From NCBI GenBank assembly GCA_017506865.1, contig JAFCMP010000019.1:124001-188000 (forward strand): DNA of 64,000 bases, written 5' to 3'. The position numbers and the translations under genes are program-made. Shown piece after piece: positions 1-47,500 of the stretch (its first letter is position 1; every line of letters starts with the position of its first letter). Below the pieces are notes generated by a model. It saw nothing but the letters and a program-made list of their open reading frames with translations, was not told where the DNA came from and did not search any database. This stretch comes from Tribonema minus. Its lineage: Eukaryota; Sar; Xanthophyceae; Tribonematales; Tribonemataceae.

Positions 1-381
1 TGGCAATCTGGCACCAGATCGGTCCAGTGGTGGTCGGGCGGCTTTCATGGGGTGTGTGTATGTGAGTGTTTCTGTGCGTCTTGTGCACGATTTAGTTCTG
101 AAGTACTCCAGAATACTATGAAGCACATGCTTCAAAGTATACAAGCGAGGGACACCGCTCGAGCACAGAGCGATGACCGGGCGACAGCCGCGCCCGCACG
201 TGACACCTGGCCGCGACTGCTGGCAAGCTGTGAGCGCCGTGCTGCTGCCGCGCTCCTCTCTCCGGGCCCAGGAGCTCTCACGCAGCATTCAACACAATAG
301 ACACACCGCCGCCTTGTGAGACCCCTACAGACTGCTGCACGGCATCTGCCGCCTCACCTAACCCTAACCCCAACAACTCAC
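1..381. other. Window edge and intron of the methyltransferase gene; no exon resolved
   Basis: This stretch follows the donor of the methyltransferase exon 3 on the minus strand and should hold intron and possibly the last exon. I find no open frame matching the expected C-terminal third of the domain. A short telomere-like block (CTAACCCTAAC) lies at about 358-368. Confidence 0.4.
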
Positions 382-688
382 CAAACCCCGTCCCCAGCCA
401 CACCTGCGCCGCCGGCGTCGCCGCGACAGGCACGCCCGCCAGCAGCGGCGCCGCGAGCGCCGCAGACAGCCCCGGGATCACTACCGGCTCCACGCCATAC
501 TCGCGCGCCTCCAGCACCTCCTCGCCGCCCCTCCCAAACACAAACGGGTCCCCTATCTTGAGCCGCGCGACGCGCAGACCGCGCCGCACGCCGTCGCCCA
601 CCCACGCGCCGATCTGCGCCTGCGCGGCGTCCATCGCGCCGCCGCGCTTGCTGCGCGGCACGCGCAGCACGGCGCCGCCAAAGCCGCT

Positions 689-750
<62 letters not shown>

Positions 751-2303
751 GCACGAGCGCCGTCACGGAGGCGTCGACGAGGCGGTCCGCGATGACCAGA
801 TCGGCGCTGGCGAGCGCTGCCACGGCGGCCTCTGTCAGGTGGCCCGCGTCGCCGGGGCCTGCGCCTATGAGCGTTATGGCGGCGGCGCCGGGGGGCGGCG
901 GCGTGCGCAGGAGGTCAGCGGCGCTGCGCGGTCCTTGGTTCACCGCGCCCATCCATGTGCCTTGGGGGCAGTCACAATGGGGGGGGGGGAAGGGGGGGGG
1001 GGGGCGGCGGGGCGTTGCTGAGCGCGCGCTGGCGAGCGTTTTAACAATGAACTGATGTGATCATGCAGGATGCATATCTGCCCCTCCAGTTGACTGTACG
1101 CAGTGACGGCGGCGCCCGCCGCATGCGCCTTCAGATTGCGTGTACGAGCGCAGCAGCGGAGGCCGCGGAGAGAACGGCCGGGCATGGCAGGCACCAGGCG
1201 CAGCCGCCCACATGGACTGGTTGACCGCTGCGGCGCACAAGGATCCGCGTGTGCAGCGCCTGCGCCCCAGTGCAATGAACTGCTGCACTCGCAAGCACGT
1301 TTCTCGGGCCGCAGGCAGCTGCACCAACCATGCATCGCGACGCCCCACTCCATGCGTCGCGGCGCCCCACTCTCACCAGGGTGCAAAACGCGCACGCAGT
1401 CGCCGAACACCAGCATCGCCGGCTCCTGCGTGGCGTGCTCCGCTGCCAGCCGCGGCAGCGCGGCGATGCTGCCGATGACAACGTGCTGCGCCTGCGTCCC
1501 CGCCGCTTCGATGATGGCCGCGGGCGTGTCTTCCGACCAGCCGCGCGCTGCGAGCGCGGCGGTGATGCCATCTACGTGCCCTGCCGCCATCATGAACACC
1601 AGGCTCAAGGAGGGGTTCGGCACGGGGAGGGCGGCTCCGCTGTCGCGTGCCGCTACCGCTGCGTCGAGAGAGAGCCACGAGCATCAGCCAGGAGGTTTTC
1701 TTGTTATCGCTGACCAACTTAAAGGCAGGTCAGGTGTATTATGCTCCTGGCAAGGTGTAGTGGGTGCGGCAGTTGCACCAGGAAGCAGGCGGCCGGTCAA
1801 CGCGGGGTACCTGTGCCAATCCACACCTGATCGGCCACGCCCCTGTGCGTGAGGGGGATGTTCGCCAGCAACGGTGCAGCGAAGGCAGATGATATCCCCG
1901 GGATTACGGAGGGAGGAGGTCCCAGGGAGCTGTACAAATGGGCTTCCGCATCGGTGTCTTCAAACATCCACGCATCGCCTGCCTTCAGCCTCAGCAAATA
2001 TTGCTGTCCCTGAAGCTGTGCTGCTGCTTGCACTATCTGCTCCCGGGACGGATCCACTGGCAGCACAATAGTTTTCTTTGCCAAGCCGGGGAAGTCATCC
2101 ACAGGTACGGAGGCGTCAGCTAGTATCGCGGTGGCGCTCTCCATAGCTGCCCTGACGTTTAGAGTAAGAAGTGCGCTGCTGCCGGGACCACATCCCGCTA
2201 CGGTGATTTGGTTGCTGGCTGGTGATCCGTCCGGCAGCAGCAGTATCAATAGCATGCTAAATCGCGTAGCGAGCAAGTGTCGGGCTGCCGTTCTAGAACG
2301 CAT
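382..2303 (-). CDS. Uroporphyrinogen-III C-methyltransferase with two tandem methylase domains (3' end off the window)
   Basis: SUMT/CobA family: two SAM-dependent methylations turn uroporphyrinogen III into precorrin-2 for siroheme or cobalamin. Three exons were modelled, 2303-1811, 1658-1377 and 960-382, all joined in phase 1. Domain 1 reads GCGPGSSALLT, then LRLKAGD, then PGISSAF and IPLTHRGVADQVW. Its C-terminal half lies in exon 2 (SLVFMMAAGHVDGI, DTPAAIIEAAGTQ, VFGDCVRVL). Exon 3 starts a second domain with GAGPGDAGHLT and LKIGDPFVFGRGGEE, then PGLSAALAAPLLAGVPVA. It ends at a donor (TTTG|gtgagt) with the domain's last third missing, so the next exon lies beyond base 1 or is unrecognised. 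A run of about 20 glycines sits between the first two motifs of domain 2. The N-terminus (SMLLILLLP) resembles a signal peptide, which would suit plastid targeting. The family is clear; activity of each domain is uncertain because each has lost different motifs. Confidence 0.85.
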
Positions 2304-7105: not shown

Positions 7106-9540
7106 ATGGCAACCAGGGACCTCACAGCGCGATATCTGCAGCTGCGGGCGTACAGATTCGGAGGAGCCCCACAACGAAATCCATCGGCAGATGAAAAGAC
7201 AGATGTCGCCCTGCTCGAGGTAAGCAAGTGCCCGTTTTGCTCATGTCGCAAGCAGGTCACCAGCGGCATGTAGAGCTCTGCAGAGGTATCGCTATGCTTG
7301 TTTCATTTCAGCATGGCTACAACAAGAAATTCTGACTTAAATACGATGTGTTGAAGTATGTACCTCTCTCAGTGGATCATCAGCAATGTGACGCAATAGC
7401 AGAGCTCGGCAGCAACGTTATTGGTGTGACCTGTGTTCGAAACGAAGCTGCGCCCACCAGCTGCGCTGCAGGGTTGCACGCGCCGTGGAGCGTGTTGCAA
7501 TACATACATGCCTGTCTGTAACATGTTGCGCCAAGCCAGCTCACCCGCAAGCGGCGTGACGCTGAACGCAGTGGCGTGCACCAAAATTGGTGCCGAGTTT
7601 CTGTTCATCCGATTGTTCCAGCGTCAACATCCCACTCTGATCCCCGCTCAGTGCTACTATGGGGGGGGGTTGACCAATGTGACTTGCGCGCGTGAGGGAG
7701 CAGGATGCCGATCTGGGCGAATATCAAGTTGAAGTTGTGCAAGCTGTGTGTTTGACGCACAGCTATTGTGCCCGCAAGCTGCGCTCTGAGGTGGCACGCA
7801 CCACGACACGCGGCTTGGTATATACCTACCTGCCTGTGACGCTTGTTGCAGGCGCGATGCGCAGGACGACGGTGCCGTGACCGGCTGGGCGAACTTCAAG
7901 TCACATCTACTCAGCAATCAATCAGTAACGAGTGCAGGTCATTTAATCCTCAGTTCGTCTCACTAAGACCCGTGCTTAATGTCACGCGGGTTAAGCCGCC
8001 TGCACGCGGGATGCGGACAATATCTGGCGCGCAGCTGCGGCGCCCGCCCGCTGCGCTCACAAACTGCGTTGTCATATATATCTACCTTCTCGTAACATGC
8101 GTTTCGCGTCAATCAGGACGCCGGCGCGGCGACGAACTTGGCAAACTTCAAGTCACAATTATCTTCACTACTTCAATAATGCGCTTTGGTTCATTACAGT
8201 AGATCTTCGGATTAGTCCCACTTCCACCCCTGCGCATTTCCACGGGGGAACAACTGTGGCCAAGCTCTCTTGCGCGCGTGGCTCGAGACGCCGGCGCGGC
8301 GACAAACTGGTCAAACTTCAAGCTGCAATTACCTCTCATCATGTACTTCAATACCGCCTGTAACAATGTGTGGCGCGCGTTACTCAGGACGCCGGCGCGG
8401 CGACGAACTGGGCGAACACGCGCTCGCAGCTGCCTTTCATCCCTAGTTCAATAACGCGTTTCGGTTCATCACATTCTCTCGTACCTGTGGCCAATGTCTC
8501 ACGCGCGTGCTATTCAGGACGCCGGCGCGGCGACGAACTGGGCGAACACGCGCTCGCAGCTGCCGCCGGCGTGGGTGGAGCGCGTGGACCGCGTGGACGC
8601 GGACGTGAGGACGATACAGTTGAAGATGCGCGCGCTGAGCGGCCTGCACACCAAGCGCCTCATGGTGTCCTTTGACGACGTCAGCGAGCAGCACAAGGAG
8701 AAGGAGATCGAGCTCATGACGCAGGTGCGCTGCAGGGGGGGGGGAGGGGGCTTGAGAGCTTGGTTCGTTGATTTTGCGCGTGTTATGGTGGACTGTCTGC
8801 CGCCGCGGCAACTAGGTGTCTGGGAGAGGACACGGGGGGGGGGGGGGGGAGGGGGCTGATGAGTGCTGTGTTCCTTGATTGCGTACTCATGATGCACGCC
8901 GGGCGTGAGCTCAAGATGGATATCGCCTACTTGGTTTTCTGAAGTGACTGGAGTTCAACTGCATAGAGCGCTGCGCGGAGTCCCGACCCACAGCGCCCTC
9001 CGAGCGCGAGCTCAGGGCGATCTTGGGCGACGGCGTGTGAGTCTCACTGTATCAAACGCCGTTCGCAGCCCTGATCCACAACGCTTTCCTCCCACCCTTC
9101 GCCGCGCCGCAGGAGATCACGCAGATCTTCCGGCACGCCGAGCGCGAGCTCAAGGCGATCGTGGGCGACGGCGGCGGCGCGCGCACCGCGGCGGACGCGA
9201 CCGTGCGCGGCAACATCCAGCGCGCGACGGCGCGCAAGCTGCAGGCGCTGTCGATCGCGTTCCGCTCGGCGCAGAAGGACTACCTGGTGCGGCTCAAGCG
9301 CCAGAAGGAGGGCGGGCACGAGTTTGACTTTCTCGCTGTGGAGGAGAGGGCCGCCGCCAAGGTGGGTTTGGGGGTGGCAGCAGCGCTCGCGTGAGAGGAG
9401 AAACGGGGGAGGGGGAGTAGGCATGTATGCTAGGGGGAGGGAGGAGGGGGTGAGTGGGGCAGCAGCACTCACGTGGGGCAGGAAGGGGGGGGAGTGCATG
9501 TTTGGGTATGGGTGGAAGGCTGCTGCTAAGGCGCGCAGAG

Positions 9541-9574
<34 letters not shown>

Positions 9575-10989
9575 AGGCATGCATACATGAGTATCTTTGG
9601 GGAGAAGGCAGGTGCTGAGGGGCTGCTAAGGTTCGAGGGGGATGGGGTATAATTGGGGAGCTCACATCTGCTGCACATGCGTTGCATGCGCTCCGCAGGC
9701 GGCGGCGCTGGGCTCCCGCACGCAAGTTGTAGTTGAAGATAAATCAGTGACGCTCCCCCCGCGCAGGCGGCGTCGCTGGGCTGCATGTCCGCGGCCTACG
9801 TCCAGACGCAACTGACGGTTTTGGTAGAAAACGAGTCGAACGTGCAGCTGAAGTTGAACTGGAAGATGAGCCGTGTCACTCACATGAGTGACGCTCCCCC
9901 CACGCAGGCGGCGTCGCTGGGCTCAGGCATGTCTGCGGCCTACGACCAGGCGCAGCTGGCGGTCCTGGAGGAGAGCGAGTCGTACGTGCAAGAGCGCGAT
10001 GCGGAGATTCGCAACATTGTCAAGTCCATCGAGGAGCTCAGCATGATCTTCAAGGAGCTGGCGGTGCTGGTGATTGACCAGGTGCAGTCACTTGTGGGCT
10101 TGGCGTTAGGGGCAGGGTAGGGTTAGGGTTCGGTTGCTGTTCCTCAGACGCTATGGCTTCTTGATTGCATTGTCAAGTCCATGGAGGAGCTCAGCATGAT
10201 CTTCAAGGAGCTGGCGGTACTGGTGATCGACCAGGTACGGGCGGCTGTCATTCTGAAGGAGTATCAGATTTGGTTCGTGTTGAAGCTCGCTGGATCCTGC
10301 AGTTGGCATCCCTGCCTGCGTATGCGCAGTTGCTAGGTATGTGCCTTTGCCAATATCACATGTACGTGCATAGTGAAAAAGAAACGACAATCACAGCAGG
10401 ACACAGTGGCATTACCTGACTTTGGCCCCAACCCTAACACTGACTGCAGAGCATGATTCTTACCGCATCGCCTTCAACATGGAGCAGGTCATGGAGCACG
10501 CCAAGGACGGCGTCGCGCAGCTGAACCAACAGCAGTCAACAAAGAAAACAATGTGCTGGAATACTTCGTCATCCCACTCTATGATTCACATGACAACACG
10601 CTCTGTTCTTTTCCTCTCGCCCCAACCCTAACCACAGGGCACAATCCTGGACTGCATAGACTCCAACATCGAACAGGTCGTGGAGCATCTTAAGAACGAT
10701 GCTGTGCAGCCCAACCAACAGCAATCAACTAGGAAACTCCACGTTGTATTAGTAGTATACATTCCATGTTTCTCACGACAGCACGCCATTCTCTTGCACT
10801 GCGCAGGGCACGATCCTGGACCGCATTGACTTCAACATGGAGCAGGTCGTGGAGCACACCAAGGACGGCGTCGCGCAGCTGCACAGGGCCGAGGAGAGCC
10901 AGAAGGCGGCGATGCCCGTCAAGTGCATCGCCGCGCTGCTGGCTCTGATTGCGATACTGGTCATCCTGCTCGTGCTCAAGCACCGATAG
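7106..10989 (+). CDS. TLG2: Syntaxin-16 / Tlg2-type Qa-SNARE
   Basis: Qa-SNARE of the trans-Golgi/endosome, about 308 aa. Five phase-0 exons: 7106-7219, 8518-8724, 9113-9361, 9908-10081 and 10807-10989. Exon 1 (38 codons) encodes the N-peptide [14 protein letters not shown], the segment that in this family binds the SM protein Vps45. Exon 2 has [20 protein letters not shown] (the syntaxin-16 PPKWVDGVE region), and exon 3 the Habc helices ([26 protein letters not shown]). Exon 4 holds the first half of the SNARE motif ([30 protein letters not shown]). Exon 5 completes it ([18 protein letters not shown]) and ends in a membrane anchor ([20 protein letters not shown]). Introns 1-4 all contain degraded copies of the neighbouring exon edges. 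Assignment rests on motifs along the whole length. Confidence 0.93.
7693..8440 (+). repeat. Five degenerate copies of the syntaxin exon 2 acceptor edge
   Basis: Copies of the intron 1 acceptor plus the first 35-50 nt of exon 2 (GACGCCGGCGCGGCGACGAA and onward) start near 7697, 7858, 8113, 8286 and 8391; the true exon starts at 8518. The 8391 copy matches the exon over about 46 nt. The 8286 and 8113 copies keep the first 17 nt almost intact and then diverge. The 7858 and 7697 copies keep only scattered matches. Intronic flanks such as the AATAACGCGTTTCGGTTCAT block are copied too, so the unit spans the splice junction. Confidence 0.85.
8990..9050 (+). repeat. Degenerate copy of part of syntaxin exon 3
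   Basis: CTCCGAGCGCGAGCTCAGGG followed by CGATCTTGGGCGACGGCG copies the interior of exon 3 at about 9136-9167 (CCGAGCGCGAGCTCAAGGCG, then ATCGTGGGCGACGGCG). It lies 120 bp upstream of the true exon, inside intron 2, and ends in GTGTGAG rather than continuing the frame. Confidence 0.75.
9540..9572 (+). repeat. Poly-G tract of about 31 bases in syntaxin intron 3
   Basis: This is the longest homopolymer in the window. It sits in the intron between exons 3 and 4. Such tracts are prone to length error in sequencing and may form G-quadruplex structure. Confidence 0.9.
9690..9865 (+). repeat. Two degenerate copies of syntaxin exon 4 acceptor edge
   Basis: Copies start at about 9698 (GCGGCGGCGCTGGGCTCC) and 9768 (GCGGCGTCGCTGGGCTGCAT), against the true exon at 9908. 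The second also copies the following codons with an open frame ([17 protein letters not shown] against [17 protein letters not shown]). It reads in frame through the remaining intron into exon 4, so a longer protein is possible if that acceptor is used. Confidence 0.85.
10166..10240 (+). repeat. Copy of syntaxin exon 4 donor edge
   Basis: A stretch of about 70 nt (GCATTGTCAAGTCCATGGAG through GACCAGGTACGG) repeats the last 70 nt of exon 4 and its donor at about 10013-10085, with only a handful of changes. It lies about 85 bp downstream of the true donor. A TTAGGG-type block (10117-10130) lies between the two. Confidence 0.88.
10425..10735 (+). repeat. Two degenerate copies of syntaxin exon 5 acceptor edge
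   Basis: Copies begin near 10450 and 10638 and repeat exon 5 (10807 on) for about 80-90 nt. The 10638 copy keeps an open frame ([20 protein letters not shown]) but ends in NQQQST before the membrane anchor. The 10450 copy is frame-shifted at its start. Each is preceded at once by a CCCTAAC telomere-like block and an AG, so each retains a plausible branch site and acceptor. Confidence 0.87.
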
Positions 10990-17200: not shown

Positions 17201-20200
17201 GGCGGCGGGGGGCGGCGGGGTAGGAAGCAGTAAAGAGTTGAAATCACTCCAGAGTATGTCGCAATCCTCTACATGCGTATTTTGGGAATATGTTTGATGC
17301 ACATCAGCATACGTGAGGACGCTTAGAATCGCGTGCGTGCTGCTCCTGAGGCGAGCTGAGCTGCATAGGTAGTACAGCTTTCGCACTGCATGGGGGAGCT
17401 TGAGCAATGCCGAGGCTATGATCAATGCAGTCAGCACAGCACGCGCACATGCACCATGCACATGCCAGACGGGAATGGCGACATCGCGCAGCAGCAGCGC
17501 GCGCCGTACCCTGGCTGCTACATTGCAGATGAGCACTGCTGCAGCAGTCAACGCGCTGCGCATGAATGCATGAATGAGTACGCATAAATATGGGCGTGGT
17601 TTCACGAACTTGAAAGAAACGAGTGCGCACTTGCATCACGTCGAAAACCAACCATCCGGCCACTTAATGTGAATGCATATTTTTATAAGCATGCATTCAC
17701 AGGCATGAAACGACTGCGTGCCTGCTGCGCCCCGTCAAGGGCCCAGCCATCCGGCCAGTTACTGTGCCTTCGGACAATGTACAAGTGCATGAACCAGCAT
17801 GCATGAACCAATCAACAGGCGTGAATTCACAGTTGAGAAACGGGGCTGCGCACCTGCGCCACGTTGAAGCACAGCCTGTCAGGGCAGATAGTGTGGATTT
17901 CACAGCAGTGTCAACTCGTGATCGAGCATGCATGAATCATCTGACAAGCATGAACGGGCATGAATTCACGGTCGCGCACCTGCGCCACGTCGATGAACAG
18001 CCTGTTTGGAACATTAAAATCAATGCTGCATGAATGCATGAACGAACACGCATGAATGAACGGGCATGACTTCAGCGGCCACACACCTGCGCAACATCGA
18101 AGAACAGCCTGTCCCCATCAATGCTGCGAGAACGCCTGGATGACCACGCATGAATAAACGGGTGTGAATTCTCAGCCACGCACCTGCGCCACATCGAAGA
18201 ACAGCCAGTCTGGACCATTCAAATCAATGCTGCGTGAATGCATGATGAACACCCATGAATGAACGGGTGTGAATTCACAGCCACGCACCTGCGCCACAGC
18301 GAAGAACAGCCTGTCAGGGCAGTCAGCGCAACGTTCAACACCAAGCTGATGCGTGAGCCAGGATTTAATTATACATGATCCGACGGGCATGACTTCACAG
18401 TTGTGAAACGGGCCTGCGCACCTGCGCCACGTCGAAGAACAGCCTGTCGGGGCAGTCAAAGTGCCCCCCCTGCAGCGCAATGTGCATGGACGTGAAGGGC
18501 TCCTGGCGCACGAGGTAGTGCAGCACGATGCCCGCGCTGCTGTAGTGGCTGCCGTACATGAACTTGGGTATCGCCTGTGGTCGGTTGTGGGGAAAGGGGG
18601 GGGGGTATAATAGCATTTGTCAGGATCAAGATCTCCTGACCTTCACTAGATTGGTGGCGATGCCTCAAGCGCACGGACGCGGAATGTATGTGCGCATCAG
18701 GACTGCATACTATGAACTCGAGGAGTACAGCGCTGCTGTAGTGGCTGCTATACATGAACTTGGGTATCGCCTGCAAGCTGTATTGAGGGGGAGGGGGGGC
18801 AGAAGGGGGGGCAGGGGGGATGGAGGTATTACAGCGCGTATCGGGATGAACATCTCCTGACCTGCACGAGACGACGGTCGGTTTTGGGGTGGGCGGGGGG
18901 GGGGGGGGGGTAATTATAGTGTGCGTCAGGATAGAAATCTCTTGACCTGCACGGAGACTAGTGGCGATGGCTCGGGCGCACTGACGTGGCATGTCAGTGC
19001 GCCTCAGGATTGCATACTATGAACTCGAGGAGTACAGCGCTGCTGTACATAGTGGCTGCCGTTCATGAACGTGGGTGTTGCCTGCGGTCAGTTGTAGGGG
19101 GAGCGGAGGTGGGGGAGGTCTCTCAAAGTGAGTACGCGGTGCTTTCACCCCTCATACGAATTACAAGGAAAATAATATATATATCAAACCTGCGGCTGCC
19201 TGCAGAGTGTCCGTATGTGTCATTGCCGCAGCTGCGCAGCTGCGACCTCGACCCTAACCCTAACCCTAGCCCTAGGGAGTACGTTTAGGGTTAGCCCCCT
19301 GCGCTCCCGAAGCTTGCAGGTGGGCCCGCACCCATGCACTGGGCACATCACACTTGTACAAGCAAGTACACTTCACGATAGACAGTGCGCTATTGGCGTG
19401 AAACGTGTGGCTGTAGTCACGCATGCGTGCGCGGCGGCCCGTGCACGTCTTCCCATCTTCTCTAACCCTATAGCAAGGGTTAGGGTTAGGGTCAGGGTCA
19501 AGAAGAAGCTCGCCGCTTGCACTACAAAGAGCGTGCAGGTGTGAAGCCTATGCCCATGCACTGGACACATCACACGCTCACCAAAATACATATCAACGTA
19601 CCGGATCTTGAAAGTTGTGCAAGCAGTCAGTATGCTACAAACATCACAATGAGCACTTTGAATGCCATCAGCGTGGCCCAAGTCACGCACGCGTACGTGT
19701 TTTCTTTTTCCGTGCGCGTCCTCCCAACGTACCGGATCTCTAAGGTTATAGAAGCAGTCAGTTCTGAAACATATAATTAGCAGATAGTATGCCATCAGCA
19801 TGAGACGCGTGGCGCAGTCACGCACGCGTACGTGTATCTTCTTTATTCCATGCGCAACGTACCGGATCTTTTAGGGTTAGAGTTAGGGTCACGGTCAATA
19901 AGAAGCTCGCCTCTTGCACTACAAAGAGGTTGCAGGTGTGAAGCCTACTGTATGCCCATGCACAGGACACATCACACGTTTACCAACATTCATATCAACG
20001 TACCGGATCTTCGAAGTTGTAGAAGCGGTCCAGGAAGGCCGCGAGGCGCTCGGGATTCAGCGCGCCAATCGGCTTGGTCAGGTCGCGAAACACGTCGGGA
20101 TCGTCAAGGTCTAGCGTGTCGCTGGTGAAGTCTTGCAGGACCCAGGGGAACACGGGGTACTGTGTGTGCGGGTAAGGGGAGTCAGGGGGGGGGGGGGGGG

Positions 20201-23200
20201 GTGAGTGTCAATGGAGTCCAGTGGAGAGGGGGGGGGGGGGGGGGGGGCATTGTGGCTATGATGTCGCCAGTCAGTTTGTGGGAGACAATTTCACAAAACA
20301 AGCGAGCGGTAGAAACTGGTGGGGGCAACTGCCTCCTGCAAAACCGGTGCATAGCGAGTTGCAGACCAGAATCGGTCCTCGAGGTCTTGCGTGTCGCTGG
20401 TGAAGTCTTCCAGGACCCAGGGGAACACAGGGTACTGCGTGTGCGGGTAGGGGGGGTTGGGGGGGTGGGGAGGGGGGGGAGTGCTTGAGGGCTGGTGGAG
20501 AGGGGGTGGGGTGGGGGCATTGTGGCATGACGTCACCAGTCAGTTTGTGATTGTGGAGACAATTACCCCCATACCAGCAAGTGTTGGAGATTGGAGGGGG
20601 TAACTGCTTCTGAGACTCAGCGGTGCCTAGGGAGTTACGGGCCAGCTCCGATGACCGACATATAGTCACTTTGAAGTAGATAGGTTCAGATCTGTGCATG
20701 CGGATCTGCAGGCAGTGTGTAGTGTTGGTGACGCGTAGCATTGAACGTGGCCGCGCTTGTACTTCACAAATCCGCTGCCGACTTGAACTGATCTGAAGGC
20801 AGCAGTTTCGGGACGACAGCTCACAACGCAGTACACACTATCGTGAAACGGAACATCACTCATTAAAGTCTCTTGCTGATTGTCACCGCCAAGCAGCCCA
20901 AGAAGCGCGCGAGGGCGCCAACGGCCACCGACTCGACTCACGATCCCACTGACTCAATGACTCGATGACTCGCCTGGGTGATGTCGTTGTACGACCGCCC
21001 CGCGGCAATGTTGAGGTGCATGAGGTACTCGAAGTTGGACATCTTGCGGCGCCGCCAGAGGTCCGTGTAGCGCGCCGCCCTGATGGCGTGGCGCGGCTGC
21101 AGCGGCGCGCGCCAGTCGCACAGCGGCGTGTGCTGCGCAGTAAAGGGAGGGGAAGGGGGGGGGAGCTTCAATTATGAGCATGTGCACTGCGTTGAAGGGG
21201 GGCGCAGAGGGGGAGAAAGGGAGAGAAGGTACTCGAAGGTGGACTTCTTGCGGCGCCGCCAGAGGTCCATGTAGCGCGCCGCCTTGATCGCATGGCGCGG
21301 CTGCAGCGGCGTGCGCCAGTTGCACAGCGGGGTGTGCTGCACAGTAAAACCAAGGGGGGGGGGGGGGTCGGGAGGGGGGGGCTTCAATCATGGCCATGTG
21401 AACAGGGATGAATGGGGGTGGGCGGAGCGGGCTGGGGGGGGTGGGAGGGATGGTGTCCATATCCCGACAGCCCCTCCCCTGCCAATCCCAGACGAAAAAG
21501 CCCTGCGCAAGGGAACAACAGCCGTGCGCATCAGCGCTCAACACTCTCGTACGCGCAACGTCGAGCGCCCGCTGCAGCAACAGTCGCGGCAGCGCAGTGC
21601 CCCCCCATGCACTTATGGAGGCACTCTCAGCTGGGCTGCGGTACGCGCTCGGCCGCAATGCTCAGGCGGAGTTGAGCACTGCAGCACCCCTTGCGTGCAC
21701 GCCCCCGTGCACTAATAGCGGGCCTGCGTCGCCGCCGCACGCAGCCGCGCGCATGCAAGTCTGCGACGCGCGCCGCTGCGCTCCTCACCGTCTGCTGCAG
21801 CAGGTCGAGCAGCGCGCGTTTTCACCAACACCCAATGCACCTGCAGCCACAACGATCGGAGCCACGGCGGGCATGCATTCTTTTTATCTTATCTCCCGCG
21901 CTCACCGTCTGCTGCAGCAGGTCGAGCAGCGCGCCGCGCTCGCGCGCGCCCGCGAGCGCAAAGAACGCCTCGTGCGCGCCGAGCCAGAACAGCTCCACGG
22001 CGCGCGGGCTCAGCAGGTAGCGCCGCAGGCACACGCGGCGCAGGCGGTCCAGCCACCACGCGCGCGCGTGCCGCTTGCGCTGGCTGCCACGCAGCCAGCG
22101 CAGCGCGGGCGCCGCGGCGGCGGCGGCGGCGGCCGCTGCCAGCGCCGCGCTGTCGGTGGGAGCGGAGGGCGGCGCCGTCGCTGCTGCCACGGCGGCGGCG
22201 GCGGCGGTGGCCTCGGCGCTGCCGCCGTGCTGCCGCGGCGCCGCCGTGGCGAAGAAGTGCAGCCTGCAGGCGGGCATGCAACAGGGGGGGGGGGCAGTGC
22301 TGGATGAAGTTGATGTTGAAGGTGCAGGTGGTGACGCTCCGCTGAGCGGTGACGCAATGCAAGGCATCGCAGGGCCATCTGTGCTTATGAAGCATGCACA
22401 GCGGAAAGGACCTGTTAAACGCAGCCGAGAAGAGTTCACCGCAAGAGTCCGCCAGGAGTTCAGAGGGCAGACGCGCACAGTCGCCGGGGACGCGGCGGCG
22501 CTGCTGCACCGCTGAATCCGCCCCCTCACACACTCCACGCATGCACGAACGATGCTGCCAGCGCAACAGGCGGCGTCTGCGCCTGCAGCAACACGCGCGC
22601 ACGCATGACTATGCGCCTGGCCGACAGCTGTTAGTACCCAGGACCAGCGACGCCCCTACAACTTGTCTCTGCGCTCAGAGCGCATCATTGACTAGTACGC
22701 CAGGCAAAGGCTCGGCCATTGACTTGTTCACTGAGCGTAGTAAAGCCCCAATTTGTAAGAAATTGAGTCAGAAGGTCGTAGAGCTCTAGGTGACAAGGGA
22801 TGGTTAGCCGCCAGTGCCTTCCACCAATAACTGCGGACGCCGCTGCTGCAGCAATTGGCCACGAGTCAAACAGTACCACCATATCCACAGTAGCCAAAAG
22901 ACTTCTGTGTGCAAGCTTTTGGGCGTTCGAGGCATATGGGTGTTGGGTATGGAAAGGTCTCACGTGTTCGTTGTATGTTTCAAGTGGTTCAGATGGGCTG
23001 GGGGGGCTCGTCAAGGGGGGGGGGCCACCTGCGGTCCCAGGGGTGGTCAGCCGCTAGTGCCTTACACCAACAACCGCGGCCGCCGCTGCTGCAGCACCTG
23101 GCCACGAGTCAAGCATCAGCGCGTACGCACCTGCGGTCCGTTACCAGCAGCACGCCGTCCAGCAGGCACTGCGGCAGCACCATCGTCGCGCGCCACCGCC

Positions 23201-40800: not shown

Positions 40801-43800
40801 TAGGCGCGCCCACTGGCGGCACACGATGCACTACGTAACTTTTCACGATTGGTGTGTCTTCCAGCATCATCATATGACTGTATTTGGCCAGGGCCAGTGA
40901 CGTGAACACGCCGCAGCGCGCGAGGGCGTGCTCACGGAGCGTCTCTGCCGCGCACTTGGCCTGCTCGGCGGCGCGCATGCATGCGGGCTGAACGGTGTGA
41001 TGGGAAGACAGAAACGCACGGAGCAACGCGTGCGATGCACAAGGGCGCGATCTCTGCGGCAGCGCTGGAACGCCGCGTACCTGCGGCATGTGCGCCAGCG
41101 GAGCCTGCGCATCCCCCGCTCGCGGCCCTGAGCACTGCCAACACCCGTGGAAATGCACACCCCGATGCCTACATGCATGAACTCAATCCACGCAGCAGCG
41201 CTCACCTGCGACATGTGCGCCACCGACGCCTGCGCATCCGATCCCGCGGCCCTGAGCGCTGCCAATACACGTGAGGGTATGTAAGCCACTTTACATGCAT
41301 GTACAGACATACCATGCAGCAGCGCTCACCTGCGACATGTGCGCCAGGCACGCCTGCGCGTCCCAGCTTGCGGCGCGCGCCAGAGCCTCGCCCCACGCAG
41401 GCCCCTCCTCAGGGGTGAGCGCCGCCAGCAGCAGCTCCTTGCCGCCGTCCACCTGGGGGCAACGGGTGATGCACCACAGTTGAAGTTTTAAACTTGAGGT
41501 TTTAAATTTGCACTCTTGGGGTGAGCTCCGTCAGCAGCAGCTCCTCACTGCGGTTGAATTTGGAAAGCTCAAGTTTCAAGTTTGCGCAGGGTGTGTGGGG
41601 GGTGAGCGCCGTCAGCAGCAGCTATTTACCGCGGGCAATGATGAACAGGTGACGAACCGCAGTTGACGTCGAACAGTCGAGGAAGTTGGAGATTGAAGTT
41701 TGCCGTCCACCTGCAAGTGAACACACGACGAGCACCGCGTCAGCTGGAGACAGGGTCCGCGAGCACCGGCCTGAACCCTAAACGCTGCCTCCCTCGCTCA
41801 ATCACGCTGGCATGCGGTGCTCACTCTCACCAGTACATCGGATCAGCACCGCTGCTGGAACGCACTGTTGGGTTAGGCTTAGGGCTGGGCAAGGCTGACC
41901 CTAGCCCTCATCCTAGCCCTAACCCCAGCCCTAACCCTACCCCAACCCTACATAACCCAGACCGACTGCCACCAAGCGCTCACCTGCACGCGGAACGCTG
42001 CCTCCCCCGCATTCTCCACGCCGGTGACGTCGTACACGGCCCCAGTTGACGTTGAACAGTTGAAGAAGCTGGAGATTGAAGTTTCCTGTCCAAAGGCAAG
42101 TGACGATCAACACCTGCGCAAGCGCTCACCTGCACGCGGAACGCTGCCTCCCCCGCATTCTCGACGCCCGTGACGTCGTACACGGCGCGCGGCTCGAGCA
42201 GCACGGCGCCGTGGTTGCAGCCGGTGGCGCTCGCGCTGCAGTTCTCGTCGCTGAAGTCGTACGCGTGCAGCAGGCTGCCGACCAGCCTGCAGTAGATCTT
42301 CGTCTTCATCACCTGTGCATGCGTTTTGAGTTTCGTGGGGGGAGGGAGGGGGGGGGGAGGGGGGGGAACAGGCGGGTGAGCACAGTTGCAGGCACCACGT
42401 AAACGCGAGCGCACATGCTGGCGGTTTGAGATACTGGCTCAGAGATACGTAGCGCCTGACACTGCGCCATGTTGGCGGGGGGTCGGCGCCGTCGCATGCG
42501 CTAGGCATCGATTGGATGGCTGGCCGTGCGTCGTACGCAAATGCCATACGTACTCACTGCTGCAAGAATTGTGCGCGCCGGACCCTAACTCTACTTAACG
42601 CTAATCCTAACCCTAAGCCTGACCCTAAACCCTAACCCAAACCCTAACCCGAACCCTAACTTTTAAGTACACGCGCGGAAGGCGGTAGGTACCACTGCCG
42701 GACGCAGTGGCGCGCACGATGGGCACCACTGCTCATTGCAGGACCGATGCTGGCCCCCCTTGCAGCCAGCGGCCACACGACCTGATGCAGTCACGCGCAC
42801 GATGGAACTCTTTTGCTGCGCATTATCAATGGTGACCCCCAAGTAATCGGTGGGCGGTTACGCCTGTTGCAGCAGCGCTCACCGTCCCCTTCCTCAGCAG
42901 CGGCCCCTCGTGGTGCTTGACGGCGTCCATGGGTAGGTATGCCTCCGCGTCGCCCGCGCCCGTGCGCACGCCGCCGTTGCTGCCGACCCACGCCGCCTCC
43001 AGCGCCGCCGCCGCTGCCGCCGCGGAGGTGCCGAGCAGCTGCGACAGCCCGAAGGCCTGTGATTGTGGCAATGGCGGGGGGGCGGGGGGGGGGTCAGGTC
43101 AGTGGGACAGTTTGCACATGGGGATGAGTGTGTGTGTAGCGCCAGAATACGGCACCGTATGATTTAGTAGTGTTTTGGACTACGTCTGAGTGGGCTGCGG
43201 GCACTAACGCAACCCTAACCCTAACCCTAGCCCTAATCCAAAGCAACACGCGGGTGCGCCACGCGACGCCGCGCATGCCGCCATTGCGCATCGTGCTGCT
43301 GTCACTGCACTGACAGCGCCTTCGGGTGTTTCAAATTTCGAAGCAAGAACAAGCGCACGCGCCTCGTGCTGAGCTGCGGACCCGCCGTTGAGCATCATCA
43401 GCTGGTGTTGTCGCTTGATAGTAACTGCAAGTGTGATTTCAGTGCATTTGTAATGACATTCTCAGCCCGCACCGCCTGTGGTTACACCAGCCTATTTCCC
43501 TGTCCCTGAGGCGAGCCCTGGGTTTATAGCGTATGCGTGGCCATGAGATGCCGTGGTTGTGCACACCTGTAACACCAATGTTGTGCTGCCATCACCTCAG
43601 TGACTCCCCATGTAACCCTAACCTTAACCCAAACTGTAACCCTAACCCCCCTAATAACCCAATTGTGCTGCCGTCATCTCAGCAGCTACTTGCTAACCCT
43701 AACCATAACCCTAATCGCGGCATACCTGGGAGAGGCAGTGGCTGTGCTTGGACTCCTCGAACCTCACCAGTCGCGTCAGCAGCGCCGTCAAGATGGGTAT

Positions 43801-44539: not shown

Positions 44540-47500
44540 CGCGCGCGCTTGCACACACACCTTGCAGGTGCTGCCGCTTCTGAGTGTGCTGCAATGTTGA
44601 ACGTTGACAACCGGCGGCGGGGGAGGTATACAGGCGCTGTTGCGTAGGTCAGCATCATTCACAATTCACATATGCGCTGTTCACCTTTCTTGCCACGCCT
44701 TGTTGAGCGCACTGCACGTATCCTTGGACGCCCTGTCGTACTCTAACTTCACCTCATCCAGCTTGATCAGGTTCCTGCGACAAAAGCACAGGAGGTGTGC
44801 GCATCATACGTTTTGAATTGCTTCACAAACATATGCAGAGTGGTATGCAGACGACGTTAGGGCATTCGGAAGCTCCATATACAAGTACAGCACATCTCAC
44901 CTTCAGTAGTAATAAGTGCTGCGTTGTGCTCCTCCAACAAAACAAGGTTGCGCTTGCTGACATGCAGCGGCGGCACCTGCAAGGCTTTCTGTCGCACATG
45001 CCAATTGTCGCTGTACCCAATATAACATTCATGGATATGGTGGCACTGTTTGACTCGTGGCCAATGACTGCAGCAGCGGCGACTACGGTTATTGGTGGAA
45101 GGCACTTGCGACCATCCCTTGTCACCTAGAGCTCTACGATCTTTTGATTCGTTTTTCATTCAACAAAGACAGCGGGCGATGCACCTGTGAAGGCGGCTGA
45201 GCGCTTGCAGTCAGTCGTGCGCACTTCCAAACAGTTCTGCGCACTTAAACAACGTCGGCGGCGACGCATCGCTGCAGATGCCATGCGCTTGCAGCATGAT
45301 AATGTTTGAGTTCACGCATACTTCAAAGAGGGCGGGCACTGCACCGCCGCAGGCTGCTATGCAGCTGCCTGAGGGCCTGTACTGCGTGCCCTAAACACAT
45401 CTTCAAGTGACATGCCTACTTCAAAGGCGACTCACCGCTGCAGGCGGTCGTGCAGCTACGTGACGTCCTTGCCCTTCTCCGCCGCAGCCACGTTGCGCGC
45501 GCAGATCTCATTTCACAATTCTCTGTTGCACACGCATGTTGAGGTGACCTGCCTACTTCAATCGCGCGCCTCACCGCTGCAGGCGGTCGTGCAGCTGCGT
45601 GAGGTCCTTGCCCTTCTGCGCCGCCACTCACTCACGTTCACGTTTTTGAAGCGTACACACATGTTGAAGTGACATGCGAAGTTCAAACGCGTGACTCACC
45701 GCTGCAGGCGGTCGTGCAGCTGCGTGAGGTCCTTGCCCTTCTCCGCGGCGGCGGACAGGCCCGTGCGGATCTCGTCCACCTTCTTGCTGTAGTAGTCGTA
45801 GCGCAGGCGCGCCGCTTTGAAGCGCTGCACGTGGTCGTCGAGCGCGCGCACCTGCCGCTGCCATGCCGCCGCGTCCGCGATGACGCCTGCGAACAGGCAC
45901 AGCAGCGCAAGCGACATCAGATGGCTGAGTCACATCAGCTGCCGGTCTGTCATGCGAGCACCTGGTGCTGAAGAGTATGCAGTGCACCTGCCGCTGCCAC
46001 GCCGCCGCGTCCGCAATGACGCCTGCCAGCACAAGCAACAAAGCGACGCGTGCAGTCAGACGCCGCGGGCGGCGCCGCTGCTGGATGTGGGGCATGTATG
46101 TATGTACCCCCGTGCTGTCACCCAAGAAGTGGGAGCAGCAGAAGTGACGGAGCGGGGGATGTGTCGGAGCACTGATATGTTGCCGCAGCCGCACACAAGG
46201 CCGCGGCGCGGCACTCATGTGCAGCTCCTCTCCCAGCCGCGTCCGCGCGACTTGACGCACGAAGCAAACTTCCTCAATTCCCAAACTCGGCTGGTAGCTC
46301 TTGTAGGTGATGGGAAGAGGAGCGTCGCCAGATTTTCTTGACCGCTCCCGTATACCTTTGACGAGCGTGGTTGACGTAGACCGTGAAGCCCTTTTCCTGC
46401 ACGGCCCTGTGGCGGACTGACACCGCTGTCAATGCCCTTGTTGTGAAGCGATGTACTTTCTGGCTTCCCTGCCAGAGAACTGCGCCGCACCGCCGCGCGG
46501 CGCGCACCAGCACATGCGCTGCTGCACGAGGAGCACTGACGCTGTCACTGCACCCACGCCGGTTCTCCGAGGCCACGGCACGGCAGTTGCGCATAGCTCG
46601 CGTCGAGGTCGCAGGCGCGGGAGCAAAGCGCAACTTGAAGTTCTTCCTGTGTGAGCTTCGTTATTCTCCTGAAGTACTTGATTTTTCAGTGATGTGAAAC
46701 TAGCTTGATACTTGTGTACCTTTGACGAGCGCCTCGCGCAGGTGGTTCACGTAGCCCGTGAAGCCCTCCTCCTGCACGGCGCGGTAGCCCACGACGGCCT
46801 TGTAGCCCTCGTCCGCGGGCGTGTACATGTGCGCGATGACGTCGCCCAGCGCGCGCGTGGTCTCCCCCAGGTGCTCCATCTGCGGGGGGGTGGGGGGGAC
46901 GCCAGCACAAATGGCGCTGCTCAGTCGCTCCAACTAGCGGTCGATACGATAATGAACTTGTCTTCTCATACATCAGATTTTGACTACAGAGTTGAACTTT
47001 ATCTTGGATTTGAAACTGTAACTACTGAGATGACGTCGCCCAGCGCGCGCGTCATGTCCCCCAGGTGCTCCATCTGACGGGGGGGGGTTACACGATGGCC
47101 CTACTCAGTCGCTCAAATAATGCAACTGTAACTGCCTCAGTCACTCCAATACCGTAACTGCCACAGGAATCATGGTTTGTACACGAGTTTGGCACAGAGT
47201 GCGTGGTCTCCCCCAGGTGCTCCATCTGCGGGGGGGCGCCGGCAAAACACAATGGCGCCACTCAGTCGCACCAACTTGTGGTCGATATGATATCGGACTT
47301 GTCTTCCAAACGTTGAAGTTTGGCTACAAAGTTGGAACTTTTTTGAACTTGAGTTGAAACTGTACACATCCACAGGAATGATGGTTTGATCACCGGGGGG
47401 GCGCCGGCAAAGCACACCAGCGCACGGCGCCACCACCGTGCCAGGGGTGGACGACTAAGCAGCCAAGCGGAAACACGATGGCACTGCTCAGGCACTCCGA

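Follow-up and report, generated by a model that had tools for sequence, protein, structure and literature searches.

Copies of exon ends are common in the adjoining introns of Tribonema minus

Copies of exon ends are common in the adjoining introns of Tribonema minus, and the repeat array in intron 1 of a syntaxin gene is one example. A survey of exon edges, as the first-pass annotation of this DNA had proposed, was run on 48 modelled introns and revealed a clear excess: 81 copies lay at 38 of 96 exon edges (19 donor, 19 acceptor) and in 28 of the 48 introns, versus 2.6 copies and 2.0 edges per set in the foreign-intron control. Local tandem duplication seems to lengthen introns in this yellow-green alga, a xanthophyte, and the conserved exon stands as the last and best-kept copy. 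The explanation that we favour, with somewhat better than even confidence, combines local direct duplication with refreshing of the copies by the exon and needs no process aimed at the exon boundary.

The window (the whole stretch of 64,000 nt analysed) carries a gene that we predict to be syntaxin-16-like, judged from its neighbours among the best 120 of the 344 protein matches listed. In the protein comparison, the joined product of exons 2-4 matched two T. minus proteins: P0001, annotated as "soluble NSF attachment protein receptor, partial", at 97% along the entire query, and P0002 at 75%. Syntaxin paralogues are located on contigs C19 (the contig of the window) and C520; their exons align to the same protein stretches, and intron positions are unchanged at the protein level. 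The gene model is as follows.

7106..7219, + strand: exon 1 (coding part), from a protein match and the start of P0001, with donor GTAAGC
7220..8517, + strand: intron 1, 1298 nt, from the intron model (intron 1 of the C520 paralogue is 457 nt)
8518..8724, + strand: exon 2, which closes the array as its conserved last member, from protein homology and the intron model
9113..9361, + strand: exon 3, from protein homology and the intron model
9908..10083, + strand: exon 4, from protein homology and the intron model

At the joint of exons 3 and 4 (9361/9908), P0001 reads KVGMSAAY and does not have residues present in the gene model. The longer form is backed by the C520 paralogue, and the difference may reflect an alternative acceptor or an annotation error. 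Intron 3 also contains a run of 31 G at 9543-9573.

Copies of the head of exon 2 in intron 1 are listed from the nearest to the farthest.

8388..8434, + strand: copy 1, 47/47 identical to the exon
8287..8316, + strand: copy 2, 27/30, then TTCAAG
8117..8146, + strand: copy 3, 28/30, then TTCAAG
7865..7894, + strand: copy 4, 23/30, then TTCAAG
7704..7721 (start approximate), + strand: copy 5, weak and gapped, score 11 within chance, accepted on its flank match

Local-alignment scores of the exon 2 head against these copies were 52, 24, 30, 19, and 11 from near to far. When the region was shuffled 100 times, the top score had a mean of 12.0, a 95th percentile of 15.5, and a largest value of 17, so that copies 1-4 stand above chance on their own and copy 5 falls within it. 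Copy 5 was accepted on context, because the 24 nt of intron directly 5' of it (7671-7694) match 8257-8280 at 79%. The repeat of the exon 2 junction is thereby confirmed at the level of the sequence, and the five tandem copies described in the first-pass annotation hold up as four clear copies and one accepted on its surroundings. The nearest copy, given there as identical over about 46 nt, shares 47 exonic nt with exon 2, or 51 nt including the four intron nucleotides preceding the exon. The reported fall of similarity with distance is correct in outline; strictly, copies 2 and 3 are in reversed order (identity over the first 30 nt is 30/30, 27/30, 28/30, and 23/30 for copies 1-4). The repeat unit also takes in intron sequence (8364-8434 and 8492-8564 match at 92% over 73 columns), which indicates that the duplicated material was genomic DNA and not spliced cDNA.

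The junctions within the array are informative about its history. Past exon position +30, copies 2, 3, and 4 read TTCAAG, and exon 2 and copy 1 read ACGCGC; the junction GAAC/TTCAAG is thus common to copies 2-4 and absent from exon 2 and copy 1, which has its own junction at +47. The exon residues NTRSQLP resemble STRHQLP of two brown-algal proteins (P0003, P0004), and since these two proteins keep residues like those of the exon, the TTCAAG version looks derived. Chrysoparadoxa and the C520 paralogue differ from NTRSQLP. From the common junction of copies 2-4 and the separate one of copy 1 we count at least two founding duplications, probably followed by amplification within the array, and not five successive copyings of the exon edge. 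If the acceptors of copies 1-4 were used, they would add 130, 231, 401, and 653 nt, respectively, and only copy 2 would keep the frame. No array was found in a self-comparison of intron 1 of the C520 paralogue (457 nt).

Further exon-end copies were found in the same gene.

9000..9035 (wider region 8974-9035), + strand: intron 2 copy of exon 3 (positions +26 to +61), 34/36
about 9699-9715, + strand: second, short match to the exon 4 head in intron 3
9767..9849, + strand: exon 4 head copy in intron 3, with a period of 141 and reaching over 83 nt of exon
10168..10236, + strand: exon 4 tail copy in intron 4, 66/69, which stops at the GT that corresponds to the donor
10452..10529, + strand: exon 5 head copy in intron 4, period 357
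10640..10689, + strand: exon 5 head copy in intron 4, period 169

The C19 gene therefore has direct copies also at the acceptor of exon 3, the acceptor and donor of exon 4, and the acceptor of exon 5, and the C520 gene has them at the acceptor of exon 3 and the donor of exon 4 (two copies). In both paralogues the exon 3 copy lies at a period of 138 or 140 and ends near the same exon position (+61 and +60; the C520 copy lies at G000:C520:493023-492964). In the inner half, each copy matches its own exon where the paralogues differ, except for one site in each that has a base found in neither exon. In the edge half, two bases of the C520 copy are those of the other paralogue's exon, and the C19 copy can barely be aligned. 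This could mean that the duplication is old and each exon has since overwritten part of its copy, or that an exonic GGC run served as a breakpoint on two occasions.

Direct orientation also prevails across the window, where 74 of 77 local repeat pairs in the complexity-filtered listing (45 bits or more) are direct; the three inverted pairs fall within GC-rich triplet sequence between 14 and 17 kb. For repeats elsewhere than in the syntaxin gene, exons were recognised only by eye, from splice-like motifs in 10 of 14 aligned pairs. Pfam searches of ten window ORFs gave matches in three, one of these below cut-off; the ORFs at 278-1057 (-) and 21822-22652 (-) had TP_methylase and PH_BEACH matches above cut-off. 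An Rfam search of the window returned nothing at the gathering score. The window also contains 19 TTAGGG-like (telomere-type) stretches, defined as GGTTAGGGTTAGGG with at most one mismatch (0 expected; e.g., 19478-19491, 42630-42655, 43213-43226).

The survey covered one genome and three gene families, with introns inferred from profiles. Exons were located by Pfam profile matches to kinesin (132) and SNF2 (75), together with syntaxin (10), part of which were used. Introns were modelled between profile-adjacent matches under frame and splice constraints, and the 48 that passed fell into 26 gene groups. In a test with 40-nt windows, at a threshold that passes 1% of foreign-intron comparisons, direct copies in the downstream intron were detected for 22 of 48 exon tails (last 40 nt), and direct copies in the upstream intron for 19 of 46 exon heads (first 40 nt). 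The corresponding counts for the reverse complement of the gene's own intron were 0/48 and 3/46. Copies were found for 0-5% of exon windows at least 60 nt from the edge and for 15-32% of intron windows. At score cut-offs of 34, 40, and 50, there remained 32, 29, and 27 edges, respectively, and 63 of the 81 copy alignments begin within 3 nt of the edge, in direct orientation and with the splice junction included.

Edges with copies occurred in all three families (kinesin 24/60, SNF2 6/22, syntaxin 8/14). The gene groups varied beyond chance in the density of copies (n = 26, p = 0.0014), for example with 7 of 8 edges on C516 and 0 of 6 on each of C246 and C31. A set of 30 kinesin loci showed many direct pairs beside matched exons, with none at some loci. 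Direct repeats made up 10,817 of the 36,725 intron bases (29%) and inverted repeats only 162 (0.4%). The nearest copy was mostly spaced about 95-270 nt from the exon, edge to edge. That the pattern is an assembly artefact is scarcely credible, as the copies differ from one another at many sites and in spacing, and the pattern occurs on many contigs and in direct orientation only.

The first-pass annotation held that duplication always occurs at the exon boundary and that the intron grows by copying the splice site beside it. The second statement agrees with the wide occurrence of edge copies and with the rise of intron length with copy number (Spearman 0.47, p = 0.0007), although longer introns also give more room for copies. 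Neither statement survives as regards targeting. There was no excess of duplication beside the edge, with copies for 57 of 248 edge-adjacent intron windows versus 174 of 726 deep intron windows (Fisher p = 0.80, approximate because the windows overlap), and duplication aimed at exon edges was rejected on these counts. The higher copy rate on the exon side of the edge is expected, because one partner is conserved there.

It had further been proposed that each new copy duplicates the current exon edge afresh, so that older copies are pushed outward and decay. Of the 22 arrays with at least two copies, 13 have their greatest similarity to the exon in the nearest copy (8.3 expected, p = 0.028); the excess of concordant over discordant pairs was 23 of 74 (Kendall permutation p = 0.013), and distance and identity had a pooled Spearman coefficient of -0.33. 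These values favour such outward growth, as does copy 1 of the syntaxin array, identical to the exon and with a junction of its own. However, the gradient is weak, a tendency and not a rule: in 9 of the 22 arrays the most exon-like copy was not the nearest, and in one array a 66/66 copy lies at 533 nt, farther out than a 64/66 copy at 233 nt. The non-exonic junction common to syntaxin copies 2-4 also speaks against outward growth, as does the duplication of intron interiors as often as of edge-adjacent intron. We therefore regard it as rather unlikely.

The genealogy of the copies was analysed at 33 edges, with copies that reach the edge. Of 43 same-array pairs, 28 had exonic breakpoints no more than 3 nt apart, versus 7% of pairs between arrays, so that most arrays look like one founding duplication that was amplified later. 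The divergence between two copies was 6.96, compared with 9.14 when the divergence of each from the exon is added up, and it was below this sum in 26 of 39 pairs. This near-additivity, which is on the side of outward growth, makes the copies look as if they were mostly independent offshoots of the exon. The earlier claim that every copy was made anew from the exon agrees with these divergences and fails for the three syntaxin copies with the non-exonic junction. Common junctions, together with contents drawn mostly independently from the exon, would fit either unequal exchange with the exon or conversion by the exon. Overall, the first-pass interpretation was partly supported.

The best copy at each of the 33 edges extends over 18-83 nt of exon. 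The carry-over of exon sequence has a mean of 46.9 nt (sd 17.3), versus 66.7 nt (sd 32.3) predicted by random breakpoints. It is thus shorter and narrower than random breakpoints would give, and the model that we prefer gives no account of this.

The copies themselves bear no sign of coding constraint. Mismatches at codon positions 1, 2, and 3 numbered 94, 89, and 164 (p = 2.6e-7), a pattern expected if copies change freely and exons change at synonymous sites. Splice dinucleotides were kept in many copies (AG in 26/31, GT in 23/32), which, together with the good preservation of the exon parts, could point to functional alternative exon ends or decoys under selection. However, displacements were in frame in 21 of 63 cases, as at random, with only 6 of the 21 open. 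In addition, codon positions 1 and 2 change alike and at half the rate of position 3, as synonymous change in the exon explains. Furthermore, GT was lost in 3 of 8 donor-side copies with identity of at least 0.95, and AG was kept in all 6 such acceptor-side copies; this contrast comes from the kinesin/SNF2 introns of C511, C516, and C102. The frame and codon-position tests disfavour a function of this kind, which we consider very improbable. Possibly, the loss of GT in near-identical donor copies reflects selection against young competing donors.

The exon part of the copies was better preserved than the adjoining intron part. Across 58 exon-copy pairs, divergence was 0.112 in the exon part and 0.309 in the intron part, and in 56 of them the exon part was the less divergent; across 38 copy-copy pairs the values were 0.182 and 0.342, with the exon part less divergent in 37. 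In the 19 pairs with at most two changes in the exon part, it was 0.030 versus 0.316. The intron part was recognisably homologous (z of 3 or more) in 23 of the 58 exon-copy pairs and 9 of the 38 copy-copy pairs, and within those 23 pairs the divergence was 0.078 in the exon part and 0.241 in the intron part. Joint duplication of exon and intron is thus unproven for many copies. The 35 of 58 pairs with no recognisable homology of the intron part could be explained if short exon ends with their splice site were pasted by template switching, without the adjoining intron. The syntaxin exon 4 copy (66/69), whose similarity ends at the GT, is one of these 35. The homologous intron part in the other 23 pairs argues against it, as does one case of about 100 nt of intron homology adjoining a 66/66 exon part, and we consider it quite improbable.

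Detection via the exon part favours exon similarity, for which a neutral simulation corrects under its own assumptions only (acceptor side, an exon part of 45 nt, ages distributed uniformly, and indels a quarter as frequent as substitutions). With similar detection, few-change pairs in the simulation reached 0.024 in the exon part and 0.086 in the intron part, and none of 5000 resamples reached the observed divergence of the intron part. The simplest account would be neutral tandem duplication in which selection acts on the exon alone, conversion plays no part, and the intron parts mutate faster; it explains the edges, the direct orientation, and the codon-position pattern. The lack of clustering among changes in the copies also speaks for it: a search for conversion tracts in 44 copies gave 2 with p < 0.05 and a combined p of 0.72, at low power for such short copies. 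The GC content of exon edges (0.61, 0.67) also differs somewhat from that of the adjoining intron (0.55, 0.62). This account falls short of the observed difference in the simulation, and it does not explain why exon parts are better kept even between two intronic copies. We consider it unlikely; it should be noted that a higher mutation rate in intron parts would also fit the contrast in preservation and counts against conversion.

An AACTTCAAGTT-like motif recurs in the window, with 18 matches at up to one mismatch versus 0.24 expected (e.g., 7892-7902, 8144-8154, 8314-8324, 46632-46642), and the 48 introns contain 46 occurrences of AACTTCAAGTT-related 8-mers (2.9 expected). Dispersed motifs of this type were rejected as a mark of duplication junctions (5 of 63 junctions versus 2.7 expected, p = 0.11).

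Under our preferred explanation, local direct duplication is frequent in T. minus introns, as the repeat pattern shows. A unit that straddles a splice site would carry some 20-85 nt of exon into the intron. Splicing would stay on the original exon-proximal site, and the extra exon end would turn intronic. Once two copies are present, unequal exchange or slippage could increase their number while keeping the junctions, so that an array forms in which the exon end comes last, as the common breakpoints suggest. The exon, under selection, would then overwrite the stretches of exon origin in nearby copies again and again, with gene conversion as the probable mechanism. We propose that the strong resemblance to the exon and its weak decay with distance arise because the exon is conserved and the copies are refreshed. 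A wider generalization, which we offer tentatively, is that in this lineage a considerable fraction of exon ends, kept by selection, serve as masters that re-seed and overwrite tandem copies of themselves in the neighbouring intron, so that introns would lengthen outward genome-wide and near-identical splice sites would be ignored.

To our knowledge, change in intron length other than by transposons is thinly documented. T. minus provides many aligned examples in one genome, each with an exon as an internal reference under selection. Its arrays raise the question of how the correct site is chosen among upstream or downstream copies of nearly the same exon end, and in this heterokont alga they amount to a natural experiment on how splice sites are selected.

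Among known systems, intronic minisatellites and tandem arrays consist of head-to-tail units, often of regular period. The arrays described here share these properties and have common unit boundaries (28 of 43 same-array pairs); they differ in that the terminal unit is a selected coding exon end. Concerted evolution by gene conversion is known in tandem repeats. The T. minus copies likewise resemble one master more than their age suggests, and the exon-homologous part is younger than the rest of the unit, as gene conversion would predict; the difference is that no conversion tracts were detected in the 44 copies, at low power. Duplicated (mutually exclusive) exons were rejected as an explanation, as the best copies span 18-83 nt and not a whole exon, and the frame is random. 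Introners resemble the present case as a process that adds intron sequence in many genes. They are dispersed, as the available text of PMC9860276 describes, whereas the 864-nt syntaxin array matches only itself in the T. minus genome; an introner origin was rejected for this array, to which the search, passing over very common words, was confined.

A literature search by titles and abstract openings, with most subscription papers and bioRxiv outside its scope, returned no report of exon-edge arrays across a genome. The general model of intron gain by tandem duplication is reviewed in PMC3443670, and Drosophila introns gained via duplicated proto-splice sites are described in PMC2891723. As far as the available parts of these papers go, the likeness lies in local tandem duplication with splice signals, by which exon sequence turns intronic. 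However, the model as given in the available part of PMC3443670 requires an exonic AGGT and makes a new intron, whereas intron positions are unchanged between the syntaxin paralogues. The nearest printed parallel found, judged from the available text of PMC4974935, is the potato RdRp gene, in which a tandem duplication across an intron-exon boundary made a new intron; the available part of PMC3488318 contains nothing closer. As in those T. minus copies whose intron part is recognisably homologous, the duplicated unit combined the 3' part of an intron with the 5' part of the next exon. The potato case, as described in that text, was a single duplication that created a new intron, whereas in T. 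minus existing introns are lengthened, often by several copies and in many genes, and donors are affected as well as acceptors. Relative to the known cases, the T. minus pattern thus lengthens existing introns, is often iterated, involves donors and acceptors equally, and is common in one genome.
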